Below are positions 4,329 through 18,697 of a stretch of 41,427 bases of DNA, piece after piece. Position numbers and translations under genes: made by a program. The stretch comes from Bacteroidales bacterium (GTDB lineage: Bacteria > Bacteroidota > Bacteroidia > Bacteroidales > JAIOZK01): positions 1 through 41,427 of the forward strand of contig JAIOZK010000032.1 of the NCBI GenBank assembly GCA_021740625.1. The letters are read 5' to 3'. Position 1 is the first letter of the stretch. Each line of letters begins with the position of its first letter. The notes under the pieces are model-generated. The model was not told the origin of the DNA, did no database searches, and saw only the letters and a list, made by a program, of their open reading frames with translations.

Positions 4329-7300
4329 TTAATGCTTCATCCGCTCTGAAAACTCCTTCTCAAAATAACCGTTTACACTGTCGCAACCACAGTCAAACAT
4401 GCGGTTGTTGTTATCATTCCTTGTGTATTCAAAAACATAGGAAATATCTTTGTCTCTTCCATCAAGCAGTGAAAAGACTTCCATGCGGATATCAGCCAGG
4501 TCATTCTTTTCTTTTGAACCCAGCTTTTTCAGAATATTGGTAATTTGTTGATAATTCAGATCTTTAACTGCTGGTTCGAAAACAGGCTCAAACTCCTGGA
4601 TTACCTGCAGGGTATTGGAATAGCTTCCACCCGACTCGAAAGGCAACGAGGCCGGCAGTATCAGATCAGCCATTTTAGCTGTTTCTGTCAGGAAGTAATC
4701 CTGCACCACAACAAAATCAGCCACAGACAGCCATCCACTTACCTGTACCTTGTTACTGGCGGTTCCCATGGGATCCTCCCCGAAAATTAAAATATTTTTC
4801 AACTTCCCTTTTTCCAGCAAGCTGTAAATATTCTCATTGACTTTATCCGGAAGCTGATCAACCTGCCAGGTTTTCTTGACCTTTTCGACAAAACCCTGAT
4901 CTGTCATATTTTGCAGTCCGACACCATATTGAGGATCAATGCCCATATCAAACAAACCCTGGGAATTATTCTTTTCCTTCATTGCAATCAATCCACTGGA
5001 AGTCTTCCCGATCTTCCCGGTGATCATGCATAAATTAAATAATTCATCGGAAGCATTGCTGGATATTTCTTTTTCTGAAAAAAGGATAATGGCGTTCATC
5101 TCATGGTTGTATCGCTTTGCAAACTCAATGACCTGGTCCATAAAAGGAACACCTGATTTTTCCACCAGTTCGACAAAATTCTCTTTCATCAGGTTTTCCT
5201 TGTATTCTTCGTAACCACGACATTTATCCTTGATGAATAAAGCATTGTGAAAATTGTTGGCCACCAGGTAGTAGTTTACAGCTTTGATAAAATGATAATA
5301 GGATTTTACGGGCAACACCTTGTCGACCTTGTGTTTCATCGTACTATCATCATGTTCTGTAACCAGTTCAACAGGAATATCTTTTTTATACTGGGCATTG
5401 TTGACCATATAGCCCACCACGGGGTTGTCCATGTTGATCTCTGATCCAAGCAGGAAGATCCTGGAGGCACCGTTTATCTGCTCGAAAGGCATGTTTGATT
5501 TTGCATTCAAAGCATAACCATTGCCCCTGTTCAGATAATGGAAACTGGCCACATTGTTTGTATGCACACTGCCGCGCGCCAGTTTTTGTATCAGGTACAT
5601 TTCCTCGTTGGTAAGCCTTGCCCCTGCAAAAAAACCATTTTCATCAGCCTCTGTTTTGCTGATCTTTTCAGCAATAAGTTCATAGGCTTTTTTAAAGGAT
5701 ATTTCGGAAAATTTGCCATTGGTTTTCAGCAGTGGTTTTGTAAGCCTTGAAGTATCATTCAGGTAATTGTAACCGAATTTGGGATATTTGCAAATATTGC
5801 CATCCTTGTTGATCCTGCCGTTCTTTCCGGTTACCCTGTGTATAAACTGAGTTTTATGGTTCAGTGTAATTTCACATCCTATCGAACAATAATTGCAGAT
5901 TGTATCTGCCTGATCGAGTTTGACAGGTCCGGGTTTGAAGATCACATTTTCTGTTATGGCACCAGTTGGACAGGTTGAGATACAAAGGCCGCAGGTTTCG
6001 CAGCTTGTATCCAGCAGGCTTTCACCCATGCTGGGTGCGACGAAAGTATCAAATCCCCTGTTAACCAGTCCGAGAGCATTGGCACCCACCACTTCATTAC
6101 AAATTCTCACACATCTTGCACAAAGAATACATTTGTTGTTGTCGATTTCTATATATGGATGTCTGAAATCAACATTGTATTCTTTGTATTCTCCCGCCTG
6201 GGCTATTTGATCGGCATGATATTCTGTAGAATATTTTTTCAGGTCACAGCTAAACAATTCAGAACACCCACATTCCAGACAGCGCTGTGTTTCATGCTTC
6301 GCGACTTCTTCACTTGCATAACCCAGTTCTACCTCCTTGAAATTCACGCGTTTTTTAGGATCGAGTGTGGGCATTTCTTCCCGTTTCTGCGTTGCGAAGA
6401 AACCTTTGTAATCTTCCTGTAGCTGCTCCTTGAAGCTTGCTTTTTTGCTAAGAAATTCCCTGGGCATGGGTTGCATTTCTTTTCCATTGAGAAAAAGATT
6501 ACAACTATGAGAGGCCACCCTTGCCTGTCCGATCGCCTGGATCAAAGTAGCAGGCCCGGTAACGCCGTCACCACAGGCAAAGACTGAATCCACACCGGTT
6601 TGCAGGGTTTCTTCTTTGGCATCAATATCACCCCATCGGTTGAGTTTCAATTCTCCCTTATCGGTAAATTTATTCACATTTTCGACAAACTCAGCCTGGG
6701 TTTTTTGCCCGATGGCAGCCAGGATGTAATCCACTTCCAGATCAAATTCGGAACCTTCAATGGGCACGGGACGTCTTCTTCCGGATGCATCGGGTTCCCC
6801 GAGCTCCATTTTCAGGCAGGTCACGGATTTTACTTTACCGTCTTCATCTTTATTAACCCTGGAGGGATTGGTAAGAAATAAATAGGCTACCCCTTCCAGT
6901 TTGGATTCATGAATCTCAATGGGATTGGCCGGCATCTCCTTTTCAGTGCGCCGGTAGATTACGTAAACCTTTTCTGCACCACAGCGCATGGAAGTCCTAC
7001 AGCAATCCATCGCTGTATTTCCACCACCCACAACAGCAACCTTCTTTTTGGAAAAATCCATGGGTTTACCCGAAAGCTGCATTTCTTTGAGGAAATCGAT
7101 ACCGGAGAAAACATTATCTGCATCATCACCTTCGCAACCGATCAGGGTGCCTTTCTGGGAACCAATGGCCAGGATCGTAGCATCGTACTTTTCCGAAATA
7201 TCTTTATAAGAAATGTCTTTCCCAAATTTGCTGTTGTAAGTAATGTTAACCCCCATTTCGGTGATATTATCAACTTCTTTCTGCAGTATATCATTTGGGA

Positions 7301-8030
7301 GTCGGTATTCCGGAATACCATACCTGAGCCAGCCACCTGCAAGAGGTGCAGCCTCAAAAATATCTACCTGGTGTCCTTCTTTTTGCAGGAAGAAAGCTGA
7401 AGACAAGCCACCGGGACCTGCACCTATCACAGCCACTTTTTTACCTGTTTTGGGTTTAATTTCAGGTTTCCATTTGTTTTTGGACTGGAGGTCGTAATCT
7501 GCGGCAAATCTCTTAAGATAGTCGATACCAACCGGGGCACCTTCATCCAGCAGGTTCCTGCGACAAGCCACTTCGCAAGGCCTGACACAAACCCTTCCGC
7601 AAATGGCGGGCAGGGGATTGGTTTCCTTGATCAGGGCAACAGCTTCGTGATACAGGCCTTTGTCGATCAGGGAAATATATCCTTGCACATCCACACCGGC
7701 CGGACAGGTTTCTTTGCAGGGGCCAATGCAATCCGCATAGTGGTTGCTGACCAGCAAGTCGAGTGCTGTTTTCCTCGCCTTGGCCACCCTGTCGTTGTGT
7801 GTCTCGATCTTCATCCCTTCCATAACTTTTGTGGAACAGGAAGGCTGAAGACCCTTCATCCCTTCCACTTCCACCACACAAACAAAGCATGATGTGTAAG
7901 GTTCCAAACGCGGGTCATCACATAGTGTTGGAATTTCTATATCGTTCCGGCGGCACAAAGCCAGAATGGTTTCGCCTTTATATGCCTGGGTAATTTTACC
8001 GTTTAATATTACATTCAGTCTTTCGCTCAT
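4329..8030 (-). CDS. StnC-like NuoG/GltD fusion with a degenerate molybdopterin-oxidoreductase C-terminus
   Basis: 1233 residues in five blocks. (1) NuoG-type [2Fe-2S] domain (C37, C48, C51, C65). (2) GltD/NfnB-like flavoprotein at ~95-515 with N-terminal Fe-S cysteines (C101, C105, C109; C144, C148, C152, C156), FAD motif GAGPGG (203-208) and NADPH motif GGGNTAMD (335-342). (3) A Cys-rich linker (C584-C595). (4) Two [4Fe-4S] ferredoxin clusters (C634-C644, C677-C687). (5) A formate-dehydrogenase-like domain from ~705 with a [4Fe-4S] site (C712, C715, C719, C747). At the place where formate dehydrogenases carry the Mo-ligating Cys/Sec and His (ARxC/U-H), this protein reads NNVASFHYLN (825-834), so it should not bind catalytic Mo. 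With the two genes upstream it matches the Stn transhydrogenase layout (StnC = NuoG-like + GltD-like NADPH site). Expected role: cytoplasmic electron exchange between NADPH and NADH/ferredoxin. Database labels such as 'formate dehydrogenase alpha' would mislead here. Confidence 0.75.
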   Translation of the reverse strand: MSERLNVILNGKITQAYKGETILALCRRNDIEIPTLCDDPRLEPYTSCFVCVVEVEGMKGLQPSCSTKVMEGMKIETHNDRVAKARKTALDLLVSNHYADCIGPCKETCPAGVDVQGYISLIDKGLYHEAVALIKETNPLPAICGRVCVRPCEVACRRNLLDEGAPVGIDYLKRFAADYDLQSKNKWKPEIKPKTGKKVAVIGAGPGGLSSAFFLQKEGHQVDIFEAAPLAGGWLRYGIPEYRLPNDILQKEVDNITEMGVNITYNSKFGKDISYKDISEKYDATILAIGSQKGTLIGCEGDDADNVFSGIDFLKEMQLSGKPMDFSKKKVAVVGGGNTAMDCCRTSMRCGAEKVYVIYRRTEKEMPANPIEIHESKLEGVAYLFLTNPSRVNKDEDGKVKSVTCLKMELGEPDASGRRRPVPIEGSEFDLEVDYILAAIGQKTQAEFVENVNKFTDKGELKLNRWGDIDAKEETLQTGVDSVFACGDGVTGPATLIQAIGQARVASHSCNLFLNGKEMQPMPREFLSKKASFKEQLQEDYKGFFATQKREEMPTLDPKKRVNFKEVELGYASEEVAKHETQRCLECGCSELFSCDLKKYSTEYHADQIAQAGEYKEYNVDFRHPYIEIDNNKCILCARCVRICNEVVGANALGLVNRGFDTFVAPSMGESLLDTSCETCGLCISTCPTGAITENVIFKPGPVKLDQADTICNYCSIGCEITLNHKTQFIHRVTGKNGRINKDGNICKYPKFGYNYLNDTSRLTKPLLKTNGKFSEISFKKAYELIAEKISKTEADENGFFAGARLTNEEMYLIQKLARGSVHTNNVASFHYLNRGNGYALNAKSNMPFEQINGASRIFLLGSEINMDNPVVGYMVNNAQYKKDIPVELVTEHDDSTMKHKVDKVLPVKSYYHFIKAVNYYLVANNFHNALFIKDKCRGYEEYKENLMKENFVELVEKSGVPFMDQVIEFAKRYNHEMNAIILFSEKEISSNASDELFNLCMITGKIGKTSSGLIAMKEKNNSQGLFDMGIDPQYGVGLQNMTDQGFVEKVKKTWQVDQLPDKVNENIYSLLEKGKLKNILIFGEDPMGTASNKVQVSGWLSVADFVVVQDYFLTETAKMADLILPASLPFESGGSYSNTLQVIQEFEPVFEPAVKDLNYQQITNILKKLGSKEKNDLADIRMEVFSLLDGRDKDISYVFEYTRNDNNNRMFDCGCDSVNGYFEKEFSERMKH

Positions 8031-8054
8031 TCCTCAAATCCTTTTAAATTATTA

Positions 8055-9833
8055 TTACGAAAGCTTAATTGCATCGAATTTACATTTGCTATAGCAGGTG
8101 CCGCACTTTATGCATTCTTCCTGATGGATGAAGTGCACTTCCTTGCGTTCTCCCTCTATACAGTTTGTGGGGCAGTTCTTAGCACAAACTGTACATCCTG
8201 TACATTTTTCAGGATCAATTTCATAAGTCAGCAATTTTTTACAAACCAGCGCCGGACATTTCTTGTCACGGATATGTGCCTCGTATTCATCGCGGAAATA
8301 TTTAATCGTTGTCAGAACAGGGTTTGGGGCTGTTTGTCCGAGTCCGCAAAGAGAGTTATCCTTGATCTGGTAAGAAAGTTCTTCCAGTTTTTCAATGTCA
8401 CCTTCACGGCCTTCTCCTTCGGTAATGCGGGTCAGGATCTCTAACATACGTTTGGTGCCAATGCGGCAGAAAGTACATTTTCCGCATGATTCTTTCTGTG
8501 TAAAATCCAGGAAGAATTTGGCCACATCAATCATACAGGTGGTTTCGTCCATCACCACCATACCCCCTGAACCCATGATAGCGCCGGTAGCATTCACCGA
8601 ATCATAATCTACAATTGTATCTGCCAGGTAGGCAGGGATGGTACCTCCTGAAGGCCCCCCCATCTGAACAGCCTTGAATTCCTTATTATCTTTGATACCT
8701 CCGCCGAGTTTGAAGATCACATCCCGTATGCTCATGCCCATGGGTACTTCCACCAGGCCGGATCGTTTGATCTTACCTGCCAGTGCAAAGACCTTTGTAC
8801 CACGGCTTTTATCTGTCCCATATTTGCGATAGTCTTCGGCACCATGCTGAATGATCCATGGGATATTGGCGAGGGTTTCCACATTGTTGATGTTGGTGGG
8901 TTTTCTCCACAAACCGGATGAGGCCGGGAAAGGAGGACGTTTACGGGGCATACCGCGCTGTCCTTCCACCGAAGCAATCAGGGCAGTTTCCTCACCACAA
9001 ACAAATGCACCTGCACCTTCTTTGATGTAGATGTCGAAATTAAATCCATCGATGCCTAAGATATTTTCTCCCATGTAACCTTTGGCCCTTGCCTGTTCGA
9101 TGGCAATATTCAAACGTTTGATGGCAAGCGGATATTCTGCACGGCAATAGATTACACCACCGGTGGCTTCTATAGCATAAGCACCGATGATCATGCCTTC
9201 CAGCACAGCATGCGGATCACCTTCCAGGACGGAACGGTCCATGAATGCTCCAGGGTCTCCCTCATCCGCATTGCAGATAATGTATTTTTCATCCGACTTA
9301 TTGTTGTTGGCAAACTTCCACTTGAGCCCGGTGGGGAACCCGCCTCCACCGCGGCCTCTCAATCCTGAATTCAGGACACTCTGGATCACATCCAGGCGCG
9401 ACATCTGTTGCCCGGCGATCATGCGAATGGCCCGGTAACCTCCACGCCCCTCGTATTCCTCTATCTTTTCCGGATCAATGTACCCGCAATTACGCAAAGC
9501 GATCTTTACCTGATCTTCGTTATAGGTGTCATCCTCGGTTTGCACGAGATCGGACTTAACAATATATTCCTTAACCGGATTGTGCTGGTTGATGTGCTTG
9601 TCGAGCACCTCGATTACCCTTTCTTCATCGATATCCCCGTAAAGATACGAACCATTCTCGTCGATGATCTCCACCAGTGGTTCACGATAGCACATGCCAA
9701 TACACGAAGTCTTCTTCAGTTCAATATCGAGATTCTCGACTTTTTTCAAAGCCTGAATCTTGTCAAAAACTTTTGCAGCTCCGGCTGCGATTCCGCAGCT
9801 TCCCAATCCGACGATTACTTTTGGCGTTTCCAT
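8055..9833 (-). CDS. NuoF/HydB-like flavoprotein subunit (StnB-like)
   Basis: 592 residues from the ATG at 9833. An upstream in-frame TTG would add 8 residues encoded in repeat DNA and is unlikely. The protein has an N-terminal thioredoxin-like [2Fe-2S] domain (C13, C44, C48). A NuoF core follows, with a glycine-rich FMN/NADH loop (157-171, GLRGRGGGGFPTG), ICNADEGDP (186-194) and a [4Fe-4S] site (C450, C453, C456, C496). The C-terminal ferredoxin domain carries two clusters (C544-C554, C574-C584). This is the HydB architecture of bifurcating HydABC and Stn complexes, where FMN oxidises or reduces NADH and the clusters connect to ferredoxin. It lies 24 nt before the NuoG-GltD gene and downstream of the NuoE-like gene. 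No [FeFe]-hydrogenase gene is nearby, which argues for a transhydrogenase rather than a hydrogenase. Confidence 0.85.
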   Translation of the reverse strand: METPKVIVGLGSCGIAAGAAKVFDKIQALKKVENLDIELKKTSCIGMCYREPLVEIIDENGSYLYGDIDEERVIEVLDKHINQHNPVKEYIVKSDLVQTEDDTYNEDQVKIALRNCGYIDPEKIEEYEGRGGYRAIRMIAGQQMSRLDVIQSVLNSGLRGRGGGGFPTGLKWKFANNNKSDEKYIICNADEGDPGAFMDRSVLEGDPHAVLEGMIIGAYAIEATGGVIYCRAEYPLAIKRLNIAIEQARAKGYMGENILGIDGFNFDIYIKEGAGAFVCGEETALIASVEGQRGMPRKRPPFPASSGLWRKPTNINNVETLANIPWIIQHGAEDYRKYGTDKSRGTKVFALAGKIKRSGLVEVPMGMSIRDVIFKLGGGIKDNKEFKAVQMGGPSGGTIPAYLADTIVDYDSVNATGAIMGSGGMVVMDETTCMIDVAKFFLDFTQKESCGKCTFCRIGTKRMLEILTRITEGEGREGDIEKLEELSYQIKDNSLCGLGQTAPNPVLTTIKYFRDEYEAHIRDKKCPALVCKKLLTYEIDPEKCTGCTVCAKNCPTNCIEGERKEVHFIHQEECIKCGTCYSKCKFDAIKLS

Positions 9834-9843
9834 AAATAAATAT

Positions 9844-9917
9844 GTTGCAGGTTGCAAGTTGCAGGTTACAGGTTTTGTTCGCTGTTTGGCTAGTAAGCTG
9901 TAACTTAAACTTGCAAC
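9844..9917. repeat. GTTGCAG heptamer repeat forming an imperfect hairpin
   Basis: Four heptamers (GTTGCAG, GTTGCAA, GTTGCAG, GTTACAG; 9844-9871) are followed by a roughly complementary arm at 9898-9917. The element fills the spacer between the NuoE-like and NuoF-like genes and would fold in the mRNA. Confidence 0.6.
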
Positions 9918-9922
9918 AAGTT

Positions 9923-10441
9923 TTAATTGTTTTCTTTAATTCTTATATTCTTCACGATTTTCACCGCCTGCTTGCCATCGAGCTTCCCGTAAGTCTCATC
10001 ACCGATCATCATAACAGGGGCCAGTGAGCAACACCCAAGACAAGCAACAGATTCAAGGGTAAATAAACCATCTTCAGTGGTTTCTCCGTCCTTAACTTTC
10101 AGGGCTTCTTCCAGTGCTTCGGTGACTTCATTTGCATTTTGCACATGACAAGCCGTGCCATGGCATACTTTCACGATATATTTCCCAACGGGATTGAGTC
10201 GAAATTGTGCATAAAAGGTCGCTACTCCATATATTTCACTGAGTTTTAATCCCGTTTCTTTGGATATCTTCTCAAAAGCACCCCGGGGAATATATCCGAA
10301 AATATCCTGTGTGCCTTGAAGCAGGGGGATCAGATTACCCTTTTTTGATTTGTATTTTTCGATAAGTTCGTCCAGCAAACTGAGATCGACTTCAGCATCC
10401 TGGACAACTTCCTGTTTCTTACTGATTCTTGCAATACGCAT
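9923..10441 (-). CDS. NuoE/HydC-like [2Fe-2S] subunit (StnA-like)
   Basis: 172 residues, thioredoxin-like [2Fe-2S] ferredoxin fold. The four ligands are C93 and C98 (VCHGTACHV) plus C134 and C138 (ACLGCC), the standard NuoE spacing. The helical N-terminus contains the conserved GTQDIFGYIP and EIYGVATFY stretches. It starts at an ATG and is the first gene of the three-gene minus-strand operon. Its role is to pass electrons to or from the FMN of the NuoF-like partner. Other NuoE-like proteins (HydC, NuoE of complex I) look the same in sequence. The choice of the Stn family rests on the neighbouring NuoG-GltD fusion. Confidence 0.87.
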   Translation of the reverse strand: MRIARISKKQEVVQDAEVDLSLLDELIEKYKSKKGNLIPLLQGTQDIFGYIPRGAFEKISKETGLKLSEIYGVATFYAQFRLNPVGKYIVKVCHGTACHVQNANEVTEALEEALKVKDGETTEDGLFTLESVACLGCCSLAPVMMIGDETYGKLDGKQAVKIVKNIRIKENN

Positions 10442-10626
10442 CGTTCAACACATTAAATTTGAGTGGATAAAATTATAAAATGTTTCATTGGTAAGCTGTT
10501 GTTTTAATAATTTAAAAGATGTCTAAATAGCGTAATTATCAAGGAATTAAGACCTGTGATACAGCTTATTGTGAATGAAGTAACAATGAGATGGTTAGGA
10601 AGCTGCCTCAGGCCTAAAAAATTCTC

Positions 10627-10634
10627 TAAATTTG
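10627..10634 (+). promoter_or_regulatory. Candidate -7 element TAAATTTG for the kinase/ABC/STAS operon
   Basis: TAAATTTG fits TAnnTTTG and lies about 98 nt upstream of the ATG at 10732. A second identical match is at 10454-10461. Neither has a clear -33 partner, so which one is used, if either, is uncertain. The 290-bp gap 10442-10731 holds no other feature that I can support. Confidence 0.3.
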
Positions 10635-10731
10635 TTTCAGAGGCAAACAAAGTTTAGCTCGAATAACTGAATTTCCCTGGTCAGATATTCTATAATGATA
10701 AAATATCCTGCTAACAGATAATTAGTTAGGA

Positions 10732-11157
10732 ATGGCAGATAAGCAGATTGAAATAAAAAAGATCCGGTTATCAAATCAGATGGATGCGTTGCAAAAGATC
10801 AACCGGAAACTTGAAGAATTGGGAAACAAATGGGAGCTTCCTGATCCTTTCGTAATGAAAATTAACCTTGTTCTGGAAGAGGCATTCACAAATATAGTAA
10901 AACATGCTTACAGGGATCAGCAAGCGCACACCATACTGTTAGCCTTCGAAAAGCATGAAAATCGGCTCATAATTACATTTGAAGATGACGGCATTGCATA
11001 TGACCCGACGAAAGCTTCAGACCCGGATATCAGCCTGGATGCAAAAGACAGGGAGGTAGGTGGACTTGGAATTTTTCTGATAAGACAAATGATGGATGAG
11101 GTAAGGTATGAGCGAAGAGAAAATACAAATATTTTGCGCATGGGAAAAAGCTATTGA
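10732..11157 (+). CDS. RsbW/SpoIIAB-type serine kinase / anti-sigma regulatory factor
   Basis: 141 residues, single GHKL ATPase domain (HATPase_c_2 type). The N-box is LEEAFTNIVKHAY with E50 and N54, the E-x3-N arrangement of kinases in partner switching. The G1 box is EDDGIAYDP (84-92) and the G2 box is GGLGIFLIRQMMDE (110-123). All look intact, so ATP binding and serine kinase activity toward a STAS protein are expected. It has no membrane segment. It starts at an ATG and lies 40 nt before the triple substrate-binding gene, first in an operon that also carries a STAS protein with a phosphorylatable Ser. No sigma factor or PP2C phosphatase is adjacent, so the target could be the STAS protein of the transporter operon or a distant sigma factor. 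Confidence 0.87.
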   Translation: MADKQIEIKKIRLSNQMDALQKINRKLEELGNKWELPDPFVMKINLVLEEAFTNIVKHAYRDQQAHTILLAFEKHENRLIITFEDDGIAYDPTKASDPDISLDAKDREVGGLGIFLIRQMMDEVRYERRENTNILRMGKSY

Positions 11158-11197
11158 TCCCGGCAAATCCATTTGACATATCGATAAAACATAGACA

Positions 11198-14086
11198 ATG
11201 AAAAATATCATCAAAGATCTCTGGCTGGCTGTAACGCTGATCCTGGCTACATCGGCCATTCTGCTGCTATCCGACCTGGAACAAAGAAAGTCTTCCAGAT
11301 CCATTTCTAAGGCAGCCTATCCAGGTATCGCCATCATGCAAATATCTTCTACTTCTCTGCTCGACAATCATGTGAAGGGTGTTGTCGACGGACTTCAATC
11401 CGCAGGCTTTGTGGCCCCTGGCCAGGATAACATTAGAATTTTTAATCCCCAGGCAGATCTCTCCACAGCCAGTGCAATTGCAAAAGATATTGTACACGGT
11501 CCTTATGAAATGATAATTACTTCCAGTACTGTGGCCATGCAAACCATTGCCAATGCAAATAAGAGCAGCAGAAAGACGCATATTTTCGGTGCCGTTACAG
11601 ATCCTTACGGAGCAGGTGTTGGAATTTCCGGACCGGGAGCAGATCAACATCCTTCCTACATGGCCGGGGTTGGCACTTTCCAGCCCGTAGCCGAAGCATT
11701 CCGCATGCTCAGAAAATTAAACCCGGGTATCAAAAAGGTGGGCGTGGTCTGGAATCCCGGTGAACAATGTTCCGAAGCCTGCATGCGGGAAGCGCGTAAA
11801 ATCTGTGATAAACTGGATATAGAGCTTATGGAAGCCACCGCAACCAATACCTCGGAAGTATCCGAAGCAGCAAGATCTTTGCTGGCAAAAGGCGTGGAAG
11901 CCATCTGGATCGGTGGTGATACCATTGCCACTTCATCGGCCGACATGATCATCAAAATTGCGGAAGAAAGACAGCTTCCTGTTTTTACCAATGATCCGAC
12001 TGATGTAAAAAAAGGAGCCCTTTTCGGACTTGGCGCCGACTATTATAGCGTGGGCAGATATACAGCAGATGTTGCTGCAGATGTGCTGGATGGGAAAGAT
12101 CCTGCCGAATTCCGCATTGAGAATCTTGTACCCCAATTGCTTGCTGTGAACGATGAGGTTATGAAACGCCTGGCGAAACCCTGGGAAATGACACAGGAAG
12201 TCCGCGATCTCTTATTGCAACAGGAACAGAAAGGTGGTCTGATAAAAAGCATTGACTTCTCATCCCTTAATTATCAAAAAAAACCGCCGGAAATTGAAAG
12301 CCTGATAGCCGCAGACCAATTCCTGCACCTGCATCAGTACAGAGGCAAAACCATGAAAATCGCATTGATCAATCTGGTGGAAAACCTGGCCCTGGAGAAT
12401 TCTATCGCAGGAGTAGAAAAGGGATTGCAGGAAAGTGGTCTGGTGGAAGGAAAAGATTATACCCTCAGGATTTATTGTGCCCAGGGCGAGATCGGACAGC
12501 TCCCTCAGATCCTCACGGCAGCCCTGCAGGAAAAGCCTGACCTTGTGATCACAGTTACAACCCCTGCATTTGTTGCAGCAACACAAAGAGTCAGGGAAAC
12601 ACCTTTGCTTTTTACCATCGCAAGCAATCCTTTTAAGATCAAAGTTTTTGAAGAAGGTGCACTGCCTGAAAACATATGTGGTATCCATGACGACCCCCCT
12701 GTTGCCGGAGTACTGGATATGGCCATCCGGTATCACGAAGGTTTGAAAAAAGTAGGTATCATTTACGATGCCGCCCAACCCAATTCCCTGATATCAGTGG
12801 AGAAATTAAGAAAGGCAGGTACCGAAAGGAACATTCATGTGCTGGAAGCGACAGCCTCCACGGCCTCAGAACTGAGCATGGCAGCACAATCACTTGTTCA
12901 GCGGGGAGCACAGGTATTTATCCTTTCAGCAGATAATCTTGCCTACACCGGATTTCCAGCCATCCTCAAAGTGGCCGAATCTGCTTCTATTCCCATCTAT
13001 ACCACGGAGAAAGAACTGGTCGAGCAGGGAGCTTCCGGAGCCATCGGTGATGATTTTCATCACTGGGGCCTGGAATCGGGAAAAATGGCGGCCAAAGTGC
13101 TGGCAGGTGTTCCGCCTGAAAAACTGGGCATCAGGCCGACAAGCAAACTTGTACGCATTGAACCCGGTCAGAAAGAGATGAGAAAAGACCATCCATCCAA
13201 GCTCAGGATTGTTCATTACAGCGAAACCGAATTCGCAGAGAGATGCCACGAGGGCCTGGTCGACGGACTTATCAATGCAGGTTTGGAAGAAGGCAGGGAT
13301 TATATCTTAAAAACTTATAACGCCCAGGGCGATATGTCGACATTATCGAGCATCATGACCACCATCAAAGCCGATCATGTGGACCTGCTGATGGTCATTT
13401 CAACACCAACACTTCAGGCTGCTCTTCGCCAGGCAGGCCCCGAAACAAAGATCGTTTTTACCGGTGTGGGGGATGGTGTGAAAGCCGGTGCCGGCAAATC
13501 AGAAACCGACCATCTGCCAAATGTCACGGGCATATCCACCCGTTCGCCTTTCAGGGGCATGGCAAGACTGATCAACGAAATGATGCCCGGAACCCACAAG
13601 GTAGGGACTTTGTTTACCCCTGCCGAGATCAACAGTGTGCTTTACAAGGACTGGTTCAAAGCCGCACTTGAGAAACATCATATAGAACTCGTAGCCATTC
13701 CGGTAAGTTCCAGTGCGGAGGTTTCCCAGGCAGCATCTGAATTATGCAGGCATGACATCCAGGCCGTTGCCCAGATCGTGGATAACCTGACACGCCCGGG
13801 CTTTGCACTGATCGCAAGGAAAGCCGGAGATAATAACCTTCCTGTGTTTTCCTTCGACAGTGATCAGATGGAGGAAGGAGCCTGTATTTGCCTGGCCAGA
13901 GACTATTACGATGCCGGGCTGGAAGCTGCTGTAAAAGCAGTCAGGGTGCTGCGGGGCGAGAACCCTGGAGACATCCCTTTTAACAATACACAATCAGAAA
14001 AACTGATCTATAATGAGACTTTGCTCGAAAGATTCAGGCTTTCCATTCCTGATTCTTTCAGAGAAAAAGCGGAAAAAAGACAATAA
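11198..14086 (+). CDS. Membrane-anchored ABC substrate-binding protein with three tandem binding domains
   Basis: 962 residues. An N-terminal hydrophobic segment (~7-25) has no obvious cleavage site and probably anchors the protein outside the cytoplasmic membrane. Three copies of an ABC_sub_bind (TrpX/COG2984-like) periplasmic domain follow at ~40-320, ~385-655 and ~668-940. Each has the same landmarks: an opening I(A/V)xx beta strand, a helix like GVxxGLxxAG(L/F), an (N/A)AQG(E/D)-like stretch, a KKVG(V/I) strand starting the second lobe, and an ATAxxxxEVxxAAxSL helix. The family is normally one such domain per protein, so a triple fusion is unusual. It sits in front of the STAS, permease and ATPase genes, so it should deliver ligand to that transporter. 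The ligand is unknown; some relatives take up tryptophan or other aromatic amino acids. Confidence 0.85.
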   Translation: MKNIIKDLWLAVTLILATSAILLLSDLEQRKSSRSISKAAYPGIAIMQISSTSLLDNHVKGVVDGLQSAGFVAPGQDNIRIFNPQADLSTASAIAKDIVHGPYEMIITSSTVAMQTIANANKSSRKTHIFGAVTDPYGAGVGISGPGADQHPSYMAGVGTFQPVAEAFRMLRKLNPGIKKVGVVWNPGEQCSEACMREARKICDKLDIELMEATATNTSEVSEAARSLLAKGVEAIWIGGDTIATSSADMIIKIAEERQLPVFTNDPTDVKKGALFGLGADYYSVGRYTADVAADVLDGKDPAEFRIENLVPQLLAVNDEVMKRLAKPWEMTQEVRDLLLQQEQKGGLIKSIDFSSLNYQKKPPEIESLIAADQFLHLHQYRGKTMKIALINLVENLALENSIAGVEKGLQESGLVEGKDYTLRIYCAQGEIGQLPQILTAALQEKPDLVITVTTPAFVAATQRVRETPLLFTIASNPFKIKVFEEGALPENICGIHDDPPVAGVLDMAIRYHEGLKKVGIIYDAAQPNSLISVEKLRKAGTERNIHVLEATASTASELSMAAQSLVQRGAQVFILSADNLAYTGFPAILKVAESASIPIYTTEKELVEQGASGAIGDDFHHWGLESGKMAAKVLAGVPPEKLGIRPTSKLVRIEPGQKEMRKDHPSKLRIVHYSETEFAERCHEGLVDGLINAGLEEGRDYILKTYNAQGDMSTLSSIMTTIKADHVDLLMVISTPTLQAALRQAGPETKIVFTGVGDGVKAGAGKSETDHLPNVTGISTRSPFRGMARLINEMMPGTHKVGTLFTPAEINSVLYKDWFKAALEKHHIELVAIPVSSSAEVSQAASELCRHDIQAVAQIVDNLTRPGFALIARKAGDNNLPVFSFDSDQMEEGACICLARDYYDAGLEAAVKAVRVLRGENPGDIPFNNTQSEKLIYNETLLERFRLSIPDSFREKAEKRQ

Positions 14087-14089
14087 TTC

Positions 14090-15310
14090 ATGGAACTCAA
14101 AACCAGAAAAACAGGCCAAATCATGATCATTTCCGCCAGTGGCAGACTGGATGCCAACTGGTCGGATTATTTCACAGAATCTTTCCTTGGATTTATACGC
14201 AAAGGTGAACATGAACTGGTGATTGATGCCGGGCAACTGGCTTTTCTCAGCTCGGCAGGCATACGTTCCCTGATCATGATCAGCAAAGAACTGGCCAAGG
14301 TAAAGGGGAAATTCACCATCGTCAATGCAAATGATTTCGTGAGCAATACCCTGCAGACCACAGGCCTTGGAACCTGGCTCTCTGATGCCAACATGCCGGG
14401 CATAAGAACAAAAGATGAAGAAATTGCAGAAGATACCATTCCGCAAGATCACTTCACATTAAAAGAAGTTGCATCGATGAGCTTATCGGTGCACAGTGGA
14501 TGGAAACCCTGGGAAGAAATTCAAAAGGATCGGATCAGGAAAGTAAGTTTTCCTCCGGATTCATACGCCCTGGGGATTGGCAGTCCGCTCAGCGGGGAAA
14601 GGACGCATGATAGAAAATTCGGTGAGTTCCTTGCAATATGCGGGAATCTGGCCTACCAGCCCCCCGAAGATAAAAGCCATCCGGATTACCTGATGGCCAT
14701 GGAGAATTACACCCCGGAGATGCTCAGCATACAGAATCTGTATTGCCGGGGAGAAATGGCACATCTGCTGAGATTCTGGCCAGGAGAGCAGAAAACCTCC
14801 ACCGGAATCAGTGAACTTGCCAACCGTGCACTGGAACTTTGTCATTCGGACGGAGTAGCTCTTGCCGTGCTGGGCGAGATCGACGGACTGGTCGGGGCTT
14901 TTATGATCAAATCACCCACAGAGAAAGAAACAGGGGAAAGCATTGATTATCCCGGGATCAGGGATTGGGTGTCATTTTGCGGAGAACGCATGTTTACAGG
15001 CGAGCAAGCATTAATCTTCGGGATTGCTTTCAGAAAAAACAAGCCCAGGTCTGCAAGCTTGCTCAGCAGGCTCCCTTCCAATCCAGAGCTTGCAGCGCAC
15101 ATGCATGCCGTTGTTTTTCCACACCAGCCATTGCAAAACGGTTTGCTTGACCTGAAAAAACAAACCGAAAAGTTTTTTAACGGTCCGCCACCGAAAGCGA
15201 TGATCCATCTCCTTGAAGATAACAGACCGGCCAGGGGACTCGGCGAAAGTTCACTCATTCGGGGAGCCATGTGGTGCTCCCCCATTAAAAATATGGAGGA
15301 AACATTATGA
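14090..15310 (+). CDS. STAS-domain protein fused to an unrecognised ~270-residue domain
   Basis: 406 residues, no membrane segments. Residues 1-~105 are a STAS (anti-sigma factor antagonist) domain; the phospho-acceptor region is AFLSSAGIRS, with S55 in the position of SpoIIAA Ser58. The remaining part (~125-400) has no family that I recognise. It contains a hydrophobic core near ALAVLGEIDGLVGAF and a C-terminal stretch GESSLIRGAMWCSP. It starts 3 nt after the substrate-binding gene, and its stop overlaps the permease ATG by 4 nt, so translation is probably coupled to the transporter. By analogy with MlaB, a STAS subunit bound to an ABC ATPase, it could sit on the ATPase encoded two genes downstream. 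The kinase gene at the front of the operon could phosphorylate it. Both ideas are inference. Confidence 0.8.
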   Translation: MELKTRKTGQIMIISASGRLDANWSDYFTESFLGFIRKGEHELVIDAGQLAFLSSAGIRSLIMISKELAKVKGKFTIVNANDFVSNTLQTTGLGTWLSDANMPGIRTKDEEIAEDTIPQDHFTLKEVASMSLSVHSGWKPWEEIQKDRIRKVSFPPDSYALGIGSPLSGERTHDRKFGEFLAICGNLAYQPPEDKSHPDYLMAMENYTPEMLSIQNLYCRGEMAHLLRFWPGEQKTSTGISELANRALELCHSDGVALAVLGEIDGLVGAFMIKSPTEKETGESIDYPGIRDWVSFCGERMFTGEQALIFGIAFRKNKPRSASLLSRLPSNPELAAHMHAVVFPHQPLQNGLLDLKKQTEKFFNGPPPKAMIHLLEDNRPARGLGESSLIRGAMWCSPIKNMEETL

Positions 15311-16248
15311 ACCTGATCATCGGTGCATTTACGATCGGCCTGATACTATCCCTGCTCTCAATGGGAATGCTTATCAGTTTCAGGATGATAAAATTTACAG
15401 ATATCACAGTAGATGGATCCTTCACACTGGGCGCATCGATAACCGCAATGCTGATCATTTCGGGCTGGTCGCCCTGGCTGGCCAGCCTGGTAGCATTCCT
15501 CTGCGGAATGCTTGCCGGATCGCTAACCGGGATACTCTACACCCGTTTTAAAATCCAGGAAATCCTGGCAGGCATTCTGATGATGACTGCTCTTTATTCC
15601 GTCAACCTGCGCATCATGGGAAGAAGCAACATCCCACTGCTGGATACCTCAACGGTCTCAGAATTTCCTGAGCGAGTGCTTGTAAACCTTTCGGATGGTG
15701 GGTCAAAGCTTTCTATTTTCGGATGGTCTGTTTCCATGATGGACCTGGCGGTATTTATCAGCAGCATCATCATTTGCTCCCTGATCGCGTGGCTGCTATT
15801 CCGTTTCCTGCTCACCCATTTCGGAACGGCTTTGCGGGCTACCGGAAACAACCGGCAGATGGTCAGGGCCCAGGGGGTGAACAACAATGCCATGGTGATC
15901 TTCAGCCTGGGCCTTTCGAACGGCCTGGTCGCCCTTTCGGGAGCCCTGCTGGCCCAGTACCAGGGATTTGCGGATGTACAGATGGGGATTGGCATGATGG
16001 TATGGGGGCTGGCAAGCATTATCATTGGGGAAGCCCTGGTCGGCAAAAGCAGCCTGGGCATTACCATTACCGGCGTCATTCTCGGAACCATACTCTTCAG
16101 ACTGCTGATCGCCATTGCCCTGCGCTGGGGACTGAACCCGAATGACCTGAAGCTGGTCACGGCCATATTCGTTTTCGCTGCACTGGTGGCACCAAAGTTT
16201 TTCAGAACCATGCATAAAAAATTCTTTAAATCCTCTTATCATGCTTAA
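15307..16248 (+). CDS. ABC transporter permease (COG4120/TrpY-like)
   Basis: 313 residues, about eight transmembrane helices spread along the whole length. It resembles the permeases paired with TrpX-like binding proteins: KFTDITVDGSFTLGA near the N-terminus, KIQEILAGILMM, LRATGNN(R)QMVRAQG near the middle (the cytoplasmic coupling region) and LSGALLAQYQGFADVQMGIGMMVWGLASIIIGE afterwards (given here as family landmarks read off in pieces). It starts at an ATG overlapping the previous stop, and its own end overlaps the ATPase start by 8 nt. It forms the membrane channel of the transporter encoded by this operon. Confidence 0.88.
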   Translation: MNLIIGAFTIGLILSLLSMGMLISFRMIKFTDITVDGSFTLGASITAMLIISGWSPWLASLVAFLCGMLAGSLTGILYTRFKIQEILAGILMMTALYSVNLRIMGRSNIPLLDTSTVSEFPERVLVNLSDGGSKLSIFGWSVSMMDLAVFISSIIICSLIAWLLFRFLLTHFGTALRATGNNRQMVRAQGVNNNAMVIFSLGLSNGLVALSGALLAQYQGFADVQMGIGMMVWGLASIIIGEALVGKSSLGITITGVILGTILFRLLIAIALRWGLNPNDLKLVTAIFVFAALVAPKFFRTMHKKFFKSSYHA

Positions 16249-17053
16249 TGTAAATGGAATTTCCAAGACCTTCTTCCCCAATACACCCAATGAGGTGAGG
16301 GCCCTGAGAAACATCAGCCTGCAAATAGAAGAGGGTAGCTTTACCGGTATCATCGGTACCAATGGGTCGGGAAAGAGTACTCTGTTGAATGCCATTGCGG
16401 GAACCTTTATTCCCGACGGTGGCAGCATATTCATTGATGAATATGAAATAAGTCACTGGTCGGAGTACCGCAGGGCCAGACTGATCGGCAGGGTGTTCCA
16501 AAATCCTTTTGCGGGAACGGCAGCCGAGATGAGCATAGCCGAAAATATCGTAATGGCCATGCGCCGCGGAAAGACAAGGCCTCTGACCCGGGCTGTCAGC
16601 CATAAGATGAAAGCAGAGATCGCTGAAAAGGTAGGCATGCTGAACATGGGACTGGAAAACCGACTGGATAATCCCATAGGTACACTCTCGGGTGGACAGC
16701 GGCAGGCACTCACCCTGCTGATGGCCACCTGGCTCAAACCCCGGCTTTTGCTCCTGGATGAGCATACAGCAGCACTGGATCCCAAAAGTGCAGCCAAAGT
16801 TGCAGAACTAACCAGCAGAATCATTCGTGAAGAAAAACTAACGGCCATGATGGTAACCCATTCCATGCAGCAAGCCATCGACCTCCCCGACCGCATTGTG
16901 ATGATGCACCGGGGACAGATCGTAGAAGATTATGGGAAAGAAGAAAAAAAGCGAGTGCGTGTAGCAGACTTACTCAATACCTTCGACCGGGTTCAAAAAA
17001 GGGAGTTGTTCGATGAGTCAGTTTCAGAACTTATAAAGGAACAGTATCTTTAA
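16241..17053 (+). CDS. ABC transporter ATP-binding protein (COG1101/TrpZ-like)
   Basis: 270 residues, complete ABC ATPase: Walker A GTNGSGKST (39-47), Q-loop Q87, signature LSGGQ (149-153), Walker B LLLLDEHTA with D173/E174, and H-loop H207. The DEHTAALDP form of Walker B is typical of the ATPase that goes with COG2984/COG4120 systems. It probably works as a homodimer on the cytoplasmic side of the permease. It is the last gene of the operon. The following 249 bp contain no gene and no convincing terminator, only an AT-rich stretch with a weak GCAATAAT/ATTATTGC inverted repeat (17153-17185). Confidence 0.92.
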   Translation: MLNVNGISKTFFPNTPNEVRALRNISLQIEEGSFTGIIGTNGSGKSTLLNAIAGTFIPDGGSIFIDEYEISHWSEYRRARLIGRVFQNPFAGTAAEMSIAENIVMAMRRGKTRPLTRAVSHKMKAEIAEKVGMLNMGLENRLDNPIGTLSGGQRQALTLLMATWLKPRLLLLDEHTAALDPKSAAKVAELTSRIIREEKLTAMMVTHSMQQAIDLPDRIVMMHRGQIVEDYGKEEKKRVRVADLLNTFDRVQKRELFDESVSELIKEQYL

Positions 17054-17302
17054 TTTAATCTTCTGCCTAGAATCCTGAGAATGATATAATATTATACCGG
17101 CAATAACAGGCTGTTTTCGATCAGGGAACCCAAAAACATGCGTACAGCATATGCAATAATATCTACACAAAGGGTAAATTATTGCTCAAGCACATCAGCA
17201 ACAAAACCGAATATTTATTGTATGCTGCATCGCATCATAGTTTGGGTTTTGTGGAATAGTTGTTGGCATCCAATAGATTGAAATCCACAGATTTTGACTT
17301 TT

Positions 17303-18697
17303 ATGGACCCCTTGTATAAAATTATTTTTTACTATCCGGCCCTCGAAAAAGAAAACAAAGGCACAGAGTTTTTGTACAGTCCACTGTCACTGGCCTATTT
17401 ATCAGCACACACCCCGGATTATTACCGGAAAGAAATGTATGATGAATATGTTGGAGAGGATATCGCTCCACACAGCCTAAATGCTGATATTGTGGCCATG
17501 TCACCATTAACTTCGGGAATAAATCGGGCCTACCAGGTAGCGGATATCTTAAGAAAAAGAAGCATTGTCTGCGTTGTTGGCGGAGCCCATGCTTCGGCCA
17601 TGCCTGAGGAAGCTCTTGAACATTTTGATGCTGTGATCATAGGTGAAGGGGAACAGCCATGGAAAAACTTTCTGAATGACTTTGAGAACAAGCGTATAAG
17701 TAAAACCTATTTCGGACGAATGGATGTTAATCTGGATAAGTTGGGCGTTCCCGACAGGAAGATGGTACATCCCAATTATCATTATCCTTCAATCAATACA
17801 TCCAGGGGATGCCCTTACAGTTGTTCGTTTTGTTATCTGACGGTTTATAAAAACCGACGTTACAGAACAATTCCGCACGAAACCGTATTGCAGGATATGG
17901 AAGATCTTCGCGGAGAACAATTGGTGGTAGTTACGGATGAAAACTTTATCGGTTACAGCCATCAGGATCATAAAGATAGAAAAGACCTATTGAAAAAAAT
18001 GATCAAAAAGGATTTTGGATTTTACTGGGGTTGCCAGACATCATTAAATCTTGCGGAAGACCCTGAACTGATGGATCTCATGTATGAATCAGGATGTCGT
18101 GCTGTCTTTATCGGTTTTGAGTCTACCAATCCCGGGGATTTACAAGAGATCAGGAAAAATCACAATGCCAATATCGATTACAAGCAGATCGTAGAAGAAA
18201 TTCATTCTCATAAGCTGGCAGTAATAGCATCATGCATTTTGGGCCTCGACAACCAGGATAAAAACTATCACAAACAACTCATCAGGGATTTAAAATCCAT
18301 GAAAGTAGATTTTGTCAGGGTTTTTCTAATGACCTCCTGGCCGGGAACACCGTTAAATAATAGACTAAAGAAAGAAGGCAGACTGATTGAGGACTGGGAC
18401 AGGACGAGAAAGGACATACCGAATATCCGCTATAAAAACTATACCCACGAGGAAATTCTGCAAGCCAGAAAAGAAGTGATGGACTCATTCTTCACCTTTT
18501 TCAATACCTTAAAAACGATCCTTAGATGGATCTTTACAGAGCGGTCACTCATCAAATTATTCATAAAGATGTCCTTCCGCAACCGCATTTCCGAACCTAT
18601 CAGAAACAAAAGGGCCTTACAATTCATCCTTCAAAAAGCTTATACTACCAAAACAACAGTGAATAAGGAAGCTGAAGTGATGGCTCCATCCCCATAA
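17303..18697 (+). CDS. B12-binding-domain radical SAM protein
   Basis: 464 residues from the ATG at 17303 (a TTG 9 nt upstream is less likely). Residues ~25-130 resemble a cobalamin-binding Rossmann domain, with VVGGAHASAMPEEAL and IIGEGE. The radical SAM core begins with the Fe-S motif GCPYSCSFCY (C170, C174, C177). A C-terminal extension (~400-464) is basic. Members of this superfamily use adenosylmethionine, and often cobalamin, for methylations or ring chemistry on lipids, tetrapyrroles or natural products; the substrate here cannot be read from sequence. It stands alone between the ABC operon and the converging Nfn operon, so the context does not help. Confidence 0.85.
   Translation: MDPLYKIIFYYPALEKENKGTEFLYSPLSLAYLSAHTPDYYRKEMYDEYVGEDIAPHSLNADIVAMSPLTSGINRAYQVADILRKRSIVCVVGGAHASAMPEEALEHFDAVIIGEGEQPWKNFLNDFENKRISKTYFGRMDVNLDKLGVPDRKMVHPNYHYPSINTSRGCPYSCSFCYLTVYKNRRYRTIPHETVLQDMEDLRGEQLVVVTDENFIGYSHQDHKDRKDLLKKMIKKDFGFYWGCQTSLNLAEDPELMDLMYESGCRAVFIGFESTNPGDLQEIRKNHNANIDYKQIVEEIHSHKLAVIASCILGLDNQDKNYHKQLIRDLKSMKVDFVRVFLMTSWPGTPLNNRLKKEGRLIEDWDRTRKDIPNIRYKNYTHEEILQARKEVMDSFFTFFNTLKTILRWIFTERSLIKLFIKMSFRNRISEPIRNKRALQFILQKAYTTKTTVNKEAEVMAPSP

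Follow-up and report, generated by a model that had tools for sequence, protein, structure and literature searches.

Two-domain STAS proteins encoded with TrpXYZ-type ABC importers are linked to kinase and phosphatase genes of the RsbW and SpoIIE types

The window analysed here, a stretch of 41,427 nt that comprises the entire contig JAIOZK010000032.1 (G000:C4 in our numbering) of a Bacteroidales bacterium (source genome 4.0 Mb, 95% complete), carries an operon in which an RsbW-type kinase and a STAS protein are encoded together with the substrate-binding protein (SBP), permease and ATPase of an ABC importer. We found that this STAS protein, a 406-aa protein with a predicted acetolactate decarboxylase (ALDC)-like second domain that we named STASX, is encoded together with such an importer in many phyla, often beside genes for RsbW-type kinases or SpoIIE-type phosphatases. 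In Methylovulum miyakonense HT12 (locus L143), the importer, STASX, kinase and phosphatase genes lie in one run. With such sets of genes encoded together, phospho-control of an ABC transporter via a STAS subunit is therefore directly testable. The operons lend themselves naturally to asking whether cells switch importers of this kind on and off by phosphorylation, which would carry partner switching beyond transcription into transport, and they add an ALDC-like domain family for which no Pfam match was found. We lean slightly towards a reading in which STASX is a subunit of the importer whose engagement with the importer ATPase is controlled by phosphorylation of its residue S55.

STASX is an addition to a known type of importer

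The SBP, permease and ATPase of the window belong to the families of TrpXYZ importers. Three ABC_sub_bind domains were detected in the SBP (11327-12172, 12356-13132 and 13244-14077), matching its description as a triple binding protein in an earlier note on this DNA; the permease matched BPD_transp_2 (PF02653, E = 8.6e-29) and the ATPase ABC_tran (E = 3.4e-29). The SBP scored 441 bits against NF041285 (cut-off 390), a value summed over its three domains, each of which presumably falls below the cut-off. Read by eye, its N-terminus is hydrophobic and has no lipobox cysteine.

A genome scan with six STASX queries gave 456 pattern matches and 340 relatives, from which 80 loci were kept. A second set of 27 loci, five contigs of which also occur in the scan set, came from searches with the full-length protein or with its C-terminal domain only. 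Gene tables for these loci consist of mechanically called open reading frames (ORFs) labelled with our own sequences and profiles, not of annotation. The record titles of the scan loci name Bacteroidetes, Acidobacteria, Verrucomicrobia, planctomycetes, Methylococcaceae, a Geobacter sp., Nitrospiraceae, Armatimonadetes, Elusimicrobia and others. Within 10 kb of STASX, a permease gene was present at all 80 scan loci, an ATPase gene at 77 and a binding-protein gene at 72, and STASX lay directly between SBP and permease at 62/80 scan loci and 21/27 loci of the second set.

Relatives of the ATPase also occur on plasmids. Eight of the 25 matches listed (at least 5000 records) were opened, one of them unannotated, and all seven annotated ones were plain SBP-permease-ATPase operons with no STASX, no kinase and no ATPase tail of the kind described below. 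STASX is therefore an extra component joined to a type of importer already known. A plasmid search with STASX itself returned only short STAS matches in three records, and a PHROGs search a single match at chance level (E = 0.12).

Two variations of the importer were seen. At the distant loci L070, L071, L072, L205 and L206, the permease carries SBP domains fused at its C-terminal end (945-1247 aa), and at L078, L079, L081, L082, L084, L085 and L088 an extra gene for a single binding protein follows the ATPase gene.

STASX carries a STAS domain with an invariant serine

The only Pfam domain found in STASX was STAS, at its N-terminus (E = 1.5e-14). An AlphaFold2 model of the whole protein, built from 70 sequences, had a mean pLDDT of 90.7 and a pTM of 0.88, and residues 1-98 of this predicted model resemble RsbV (6m36_B; Z 17.3, rmsd 1.4, 97 residues aligned). 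STASX also passes the ant_ant_sig profile TIGR00377 (56.8 bits, cut-off 53.45). It thus shares the STAS fold and the anti-anti-sigma profile with the RsbV/SpoIIAA antagonists, but with 406 aa it is not a single-domain protein. The 70 sequences are the window protein and 69 of the other 77, as three of the 80 scan loci had no single frame over the match and were excluded from alignments; the alignment of the second domain alone has 53 rows.

As the pattern used in the 80-locus scan, [YF][IL]SSAGI[RG][SIV][LF], spells out S55, finding the residue at those loci proves nothing, and we recounted it on the 27 sequences of the second set, which was chosen without any such pattern. There S54, S55 and G57 were each present in 27/27 sequences; residue 56 varied (A in 20, L in five, T and P in one each). 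The STAS domain and S55 named in the earlier note are therefore in place, but a second domain of the protein had been overlooked.

The second domain has a predicted ALDC-like fold

In the whole-STASX model, residues 130-406 resemble acetolactate decarboxylase (6j92_B; Z 17.8, rmsd 2.9, 202 aligned). Folded alone from the 53 sequences, the second domain reached a pLDDT of 91.8 and matched ALDC in Foldseek (5yho_A, E = 6.2e-6). Against 6j92_B this model gave Z 17.9 (rmsd 2.9, 202 aligned) and against PTD012 Z 15.0; four PPC/AF0104-like proteins scored Z 7-9 and unrelated rows at most 3.1. Residues ~116-406 are thus predicted to adopt an ALDC-like fold. Homology to ALDC at the sequence level was sought by Pfam, PDB profile and hhalign searches, and none was found: a Pfam scan of 15 STASX members (maximum E 10; HMMER filters drop most very weak matches) gave no PF03306, a PDB profile search with the domain gave one unrelated match (E = 0.46), and hhalign of STASX against a 13-sequence ALDC alignment was not significant (probability 0.7-1.0%). 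Because sequence profiles do not link the two families, the ALDC likeness is a statement about predicted structure only.

Three histidines, H337, H339 and H373, were invariant in alignments of 9 and of 70 rows and in 26/26 complete rows of the second set, and E179 was invariant in 27/27 STASX proteins of that set. From this conservation, H337, H339 and H373 may form a metal site. The histidines of ALDC form an HxH motif with a third histidine 11 residues on, whereas the third histidine of STASX stands 34 residues past H339, after a helix.

STASX might, on the strength of this domain, be mainly an enzyme with the imported compound as its substrate, an ALDC-like metal-dependent decarboxylase or lyase tethered to the importer by its STAS domain. 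The predicted fold and the invariant histidines and glutamate would suit such a role, and the related human PTD012 is reported as a decarboxylase with zinc held by three histidines (PMC12435205). We nevertheless regard this as improbable, given that a common fold shows no function, that the third histidine is differently spaced and that neither PF03306 nor the ALDC alignment was matched.

A separate STAS-ALDC neighbourhood was seen in three genomes of genus g107, where ~0.76-0.88 kb separate a plain STAS gene from the gene of a genuine acetolactate decarboxylase with a PF03306 match (G119:C30, loci L030 and L209; G134:C1, L031 and L210; G153:C34, L211). This closeness either echoes the STAS-ALDC fusion or has arisen by chance.

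Kinase and phosphatase genes are linked to STASX operons

The kinase of the window is a member of the RsbW/SpoIIAB kinase superfamily. It matched HATPase_c_2 (PF13581) with E = 2.5e-26 (92.6 bits, cut-off 27.4) and an RsbW chain (6m36_A) with E = 5.4e-9. Residues E50, N54, D85, G110, G111, L112 and G113 were invariant across 17 aligned kinases, the window's included, so that the intact kinase with E50 and N54 that had been read from the sequence holds up; these conserved residues we take to be those of the N, G1 and G2 boxes. The profiles of the RsbW sigma-B equivalogs were not reached (NF003144, 60.3 against 145 bits; TIGR01924, 53.1 against 155.05 bits).

Within 10 kb of STASX, a single-domain RsbW-type kinase was encoded at 34/80 scan loci, a SpoIIE phosphatase at 36/80 and either of the two at 43/80; in the second set the numbers were 10/27, 14/27 and 15/27. 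For these counts, kinase matches above 260 aa and STAS matches above 200 aa were not taken as single-domain, and the kinases counted include a 54-aa fragment at a contig end (L085) and four kinase-STAS fusions (L117, L121, L122 and L124). Among the 34 scan loci with full flanks (8 kb on both sides), 20 had a kinase within 8 kb, where 0.22 loci were expected from 70 such kinase matches placed uniformly across the 34 genomes.

Co-occurrence gave a concordant picture at the level of genomes. STASX was present in 25 of 393 genomes of the window's order, and a kinase domain (E <= 1e-20, with a query built from operon-linked kinases) was found in 25/25 of these against 73/368 of the others (Fisher 6e-17, relatedness ignored). 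One of the 25, G667, consists of fragments and was not fetched, and three genomes (G001, G395 and G640) have their best kinase-domain match in a frame of ~800 aa rather than in a single-domain gene. A mirror-tree comparison of kinase and STASX over 32 loci, with five duplicate contigs excluded, gave a correlation of 0.53 and a partial correlation of 0.36 given the permease.

Gene order pointed the same way. The same-strand order kinase-SBP-STASX-permease-ATPase recurs at L083, L115, L143 and L154, and L093 has the window's order except that the ATPase gene is placed 4.3 kb further on. At L143 the kinase gene follows a gene for a SpoIIE phosphatase, and at L092, L205 and L206 such a gene stands directly before STASX; L115, like the window, has no phosphatase gene within 10 kb. 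The phosphatases scanned were of the dCache-HAMP-SpoIIE, receiver-SpoIIE or receiver-PAS-SpoIIE type. The full-flank and co-occurrence counts bear out the earlier note's proposal of a kinase/STAS pair tied to an ABC operon. The note's proposal would be refuted if the kinase gene were not conserved beside the ABC genes in relatives, and on this point the outcome is mixed: the five-gene order recurs at four other loci, but in a genome of the same genus, G001, the operon has no adjacent kinase gene. That first reading left out the phosphatase half of the switch, whose SpoIIE genes are linked as often as the kinases.

Fusions of partner-switch domains were also found near STASX operons. Kinase-STAS fusions of ~250 aa occur at L117, L121, L122 and L124 and SpoIIE-kinase fusions of ~810 aa at L131, L147 and L149; L117 and L131 were confirmed by Pfam, the others by our own profiles only.

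Partner-switch genes elsewhere in the genome

The window's own genome encodes two STAS proteins, two single-domain RsbW kinases, two SpoIIE phosphatases and a 504-aa protein with a kinase-like domain. Contig C1 holds a complete SpoIIE/RsbW/STAS module with its own RsbW, which leaves over the window kinase, STASX and a dCache-HAMP-SpoIIE phosphatase on contig C28, a contig with no PF13581 or PF01740 match. The best match of the window kinase among the linked kinases compared was that of L105 (49%), and the best match of the C28 phosphatase among nine compared was likewise that of L105 (49%), where both genes lie 4.6-7 kb after STASX. The three left-over proteins may work together.

The window kinase might instead serve the STAS protein of the C1 module, its place before the importer genes reflecting shared expression only. 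The completeness of that module and the lack of an adjacent kinase in G001 would agree with this, but the module has an RsbW of its own, the linkage across phyla is far above the background model, and at L083 (with only 2.7 kb on one side), L093, L115 and L143 the 10 kb around the operon yielded no single STAS protein besides STASX. We judge this arrangement very unlikely.

In the C1 module, the 504-aa protein (L073:5513-7027, minus strand) has a HATPase_c_2 domain at its N-terminus, and its long C-terminal part gave no Pfam match; a 505-aa counterpart is encoded on contig C55 of G001.

The earlier note had also considered that the transporter reports ligand status to a sigma factor through the STAS protein. 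The usual target was missing: a SigB/F/G-type sigma factor (TIGR02980; other sigma types were not searched) was over the cut-off in 0/60 relatives, the window's own genome included, and in 1/14 controls. In a more general form of this idea the transporter would be the sensor and STASX the messenger, ligand flux or binding altering the hold of STASX on the kinase, which would relay the signal elsewhere, to a sigma factor or another partner. RsbW kinases are the classical binding partners of STAS proteins, and the closeness of the STAS domain to RsbV, the TIGR00377 match and the single STAS proteins near many kinase-bearing loci (25/34 in the scan) are all consistent with it. The sigma-factor result speaks against it, as does the ATPase tail, which points to contact with the transporter and not with the kinase only. 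We therefore think it unlikely that the importer reports to another target, and less likely than control of ATPase engagement through S55.

A tail on the ATPase and a proposed switch

Among 90 STASX-type ATPases, a few of them from duplicate contigs, 58 have a length of exactly 270 aa. Position 269 is Y in 88/90 and position 262 is A in 78/90 (the window has S262), and both positions are gaps in 8/8 relatives from operons without STASX. STASX-type and ordinary ATPases differ further at positions 43, 88 and 90, which we assign to the Walker A and Q-loop regions.

This C-terminal tail is reminiscent of MlaF. Kolich et al. 2020 (PMC7367683) describe MlaF as contacting the STAS protein MlaB through a C-terminal extension; T52, the acceptor-site residue of MlaB, lies at the MlaF interface, where the T52E variant binds more weakly. 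The authors report no experimental evidence that MlaB is phosphorylated, leave the regulation of active MlaB open with phosphorylation raised as a possibility, and found STAS and ABC domains together in no other PDB entry (PMC7367683). By analogy, the tail is suggestive of contact between the ATPase and STASX.

In the reading that we favour, a TrpXYZ-type ABC importer would carry STASX as an added cytoplasmic regulatory subunit. The RsbW-type kinase would phosphorylate S55 in the STAS domain, and a SpoIIE-type phosphatase acting in trans, for which the C28 dCache-HAMP-SpoIIE protein is the best candidate, would remove the phosphate. The dephosphorylated STAS domain would dock on the importer ATPase, probably via the extra C-terminal tail, and docked STASX would license or tune transport, much as MlaB for MlaF; phosphorylation of S55 would break this contact. 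The ALDC-like domain may provide a second input by binding, and perhaps converting, a cytoplasmic metabolite, possibly the imported compound.

Several observations weigh against this reading. Neither kinase nor phosphatase genes were found within 10 kb at 37/80 scan loci and 12/27 loci of the second set, and among full-flank loci neither was found within 8 kb at 11/34 and 3/12, respectively. Single STAS proteins, which could be the true substrates of the kinases, are encoded within 10 kb of most kinase-bearing loci, the scan count given above being joined by 9/10 in the second set. Five single STAS proteins beside such kinases also carry the SS[SA]G motif, and S55 alone is therefore no mark of a special role. 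The same-genus G001 keeps the operon core and S55 (STASX 57% identical) with no kinase beside the operon, and its two strongest HATPase_c_2 matches lie in the module on C55. Lastly, the ATPase tail could be a mark of the clade.

Relation to known systems

The STASX operons join two known kinds of system, partner switching and STAS-regulated ABC transport, via an ALDC-like domain. With RsbU/RsbW/RsbV and SpoIIE/SpoIIAB/SpoIIAA they share the kinase, STAS and phosphatase families and an acceptor serine in place, but they are linked to an importer, and no SigB/F/G-type sigma factor was over the cut-off in the 60 relatives. SypE/SypA of Vibrio fischeri is likewise a kinase/STAS pair of a Gram-negative bacterium with a mechanism as yet unknown, but it serves biofilm control. 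To our knowledge, SypE/SypA has neither an ABC importer nor an ALDC-like domain, and the TrpXYZ system of Streptococcus has no STASX, kinase or tail. This tryptophan importer uses the same SBP, permease and ATPase families and has a single protein of each kind (PMC9382623).

MlaFEDB is alike in that a STAS protein is encoded with an ABC transporter, a serine or threonine stands at the acceptor position and the ATPase has a C-terminal extension. It differs in that MlaB is a single minimal STAS domain and the transporter is an MCE lipid transporter, whereas the STASX operons have a TrpXYZ-type importer, a STAS protein with an ALDC-like domain and, often, linked kinase or phosphatase genes. The families of the window permease (BPD_transp_2) and binding protein (ABC_sub_bind) are not those of an Mla/MCE transporter. 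From the ALDC/PTD012 superfamily, which the predicted fold of STASX residues 127-406 resembles, STASX is set apart by its fusion to STAS, its histidine spacing and the absence of a significant sequence-profile match.

The main text of a review (PMC8256260) contains neither 'MlaB' nor 'ABC'. In agreement with the earlier note, which knew of no described system with this gene set, a literature search found no description of one; most subscription journals lay outside its coverage, and it is no proof of novelty. We offer only tentatively, and with some doubt, the wider claim that these operons encode an undescribed, widespread class of ABC importers in which a SpoIIE/RsbW switch, with SpoIIE driven through dCache or receiver domains, gates transport through phosphorylation of a STAS-ALDC metalloprotein subunit, a single protein that would integrate an outside signal, the state of the transporter and a cytoplasmic metabolite, which it may convert as well.

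Organization of the locus

ORF calls and domain searches agree that all five co-directional genes of the operon (10732-17053, plus strand) are present and intact where they had first been placed (Table 1). The kinase and SBP genes are separated by 40 nt. The three tight junctions read initially are a gap of 3 nt between SBP and STASX and overlaps of 4 nt between STASX and permease and of 8 nt between permease and ATPase. The divergent intergenic region before the kinase gene is, from its position, the likely promoter of the operon.

Table 1. Features of the STASX importer operon in the window
Feature	Position	Strand	Size and basis
RsbW/SpoIIAB-type serine kinase	10732..11157	+	141 aa; HATPase_c_2 and RsbW chain matches
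Triple TrpX-type SBP	11198..14086	+	962 aa; three ABC_sub_bind domains
STASX, STAS and predicted ALDC-like two-domain protein	14090..15310	+	406 aa; Pfam and AlphaFold2 model
STAS domain of STASX, residues 1-107	14090..14410	+	RsbV structural match
Codon of predicted phospho-acceptor S55	14252..14254	+	invariance in STASX alignment
ALDC-like domain of STASX, residues 116-406 (N-terminal border approximate)	14435..15307	+	predicted fold
Importer permease, BPD_transp_2	15307..16248	+	313 aa; PF02653
Importer ATPase	16241..17053	+	270 aa; ABC_tran
C-terminal tail of ATPase, typical of STASX-type ATPases	17006..17050	+	ATPase alignment
Divergent intergenic region, candidate operon promoter	10442..10731		between minus-strand ORF 9923-10441 and kinase

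The window gave no matches in a tRNA scan or against Rfam (gathering thresholds). Upstream of the operon, a gene cluster lies on the reverse strand (4329-10441), which from its translations we take to encode NAD-linked NuoE/NuoF-type and formate-dehydrogenase-like subunits. Downstream, 240 nt past the ATPase gene, an ORF on the plus strand (17294-18697) presumably encodes a radical-SAM-like protein with a B12-binding-like N-terminus.

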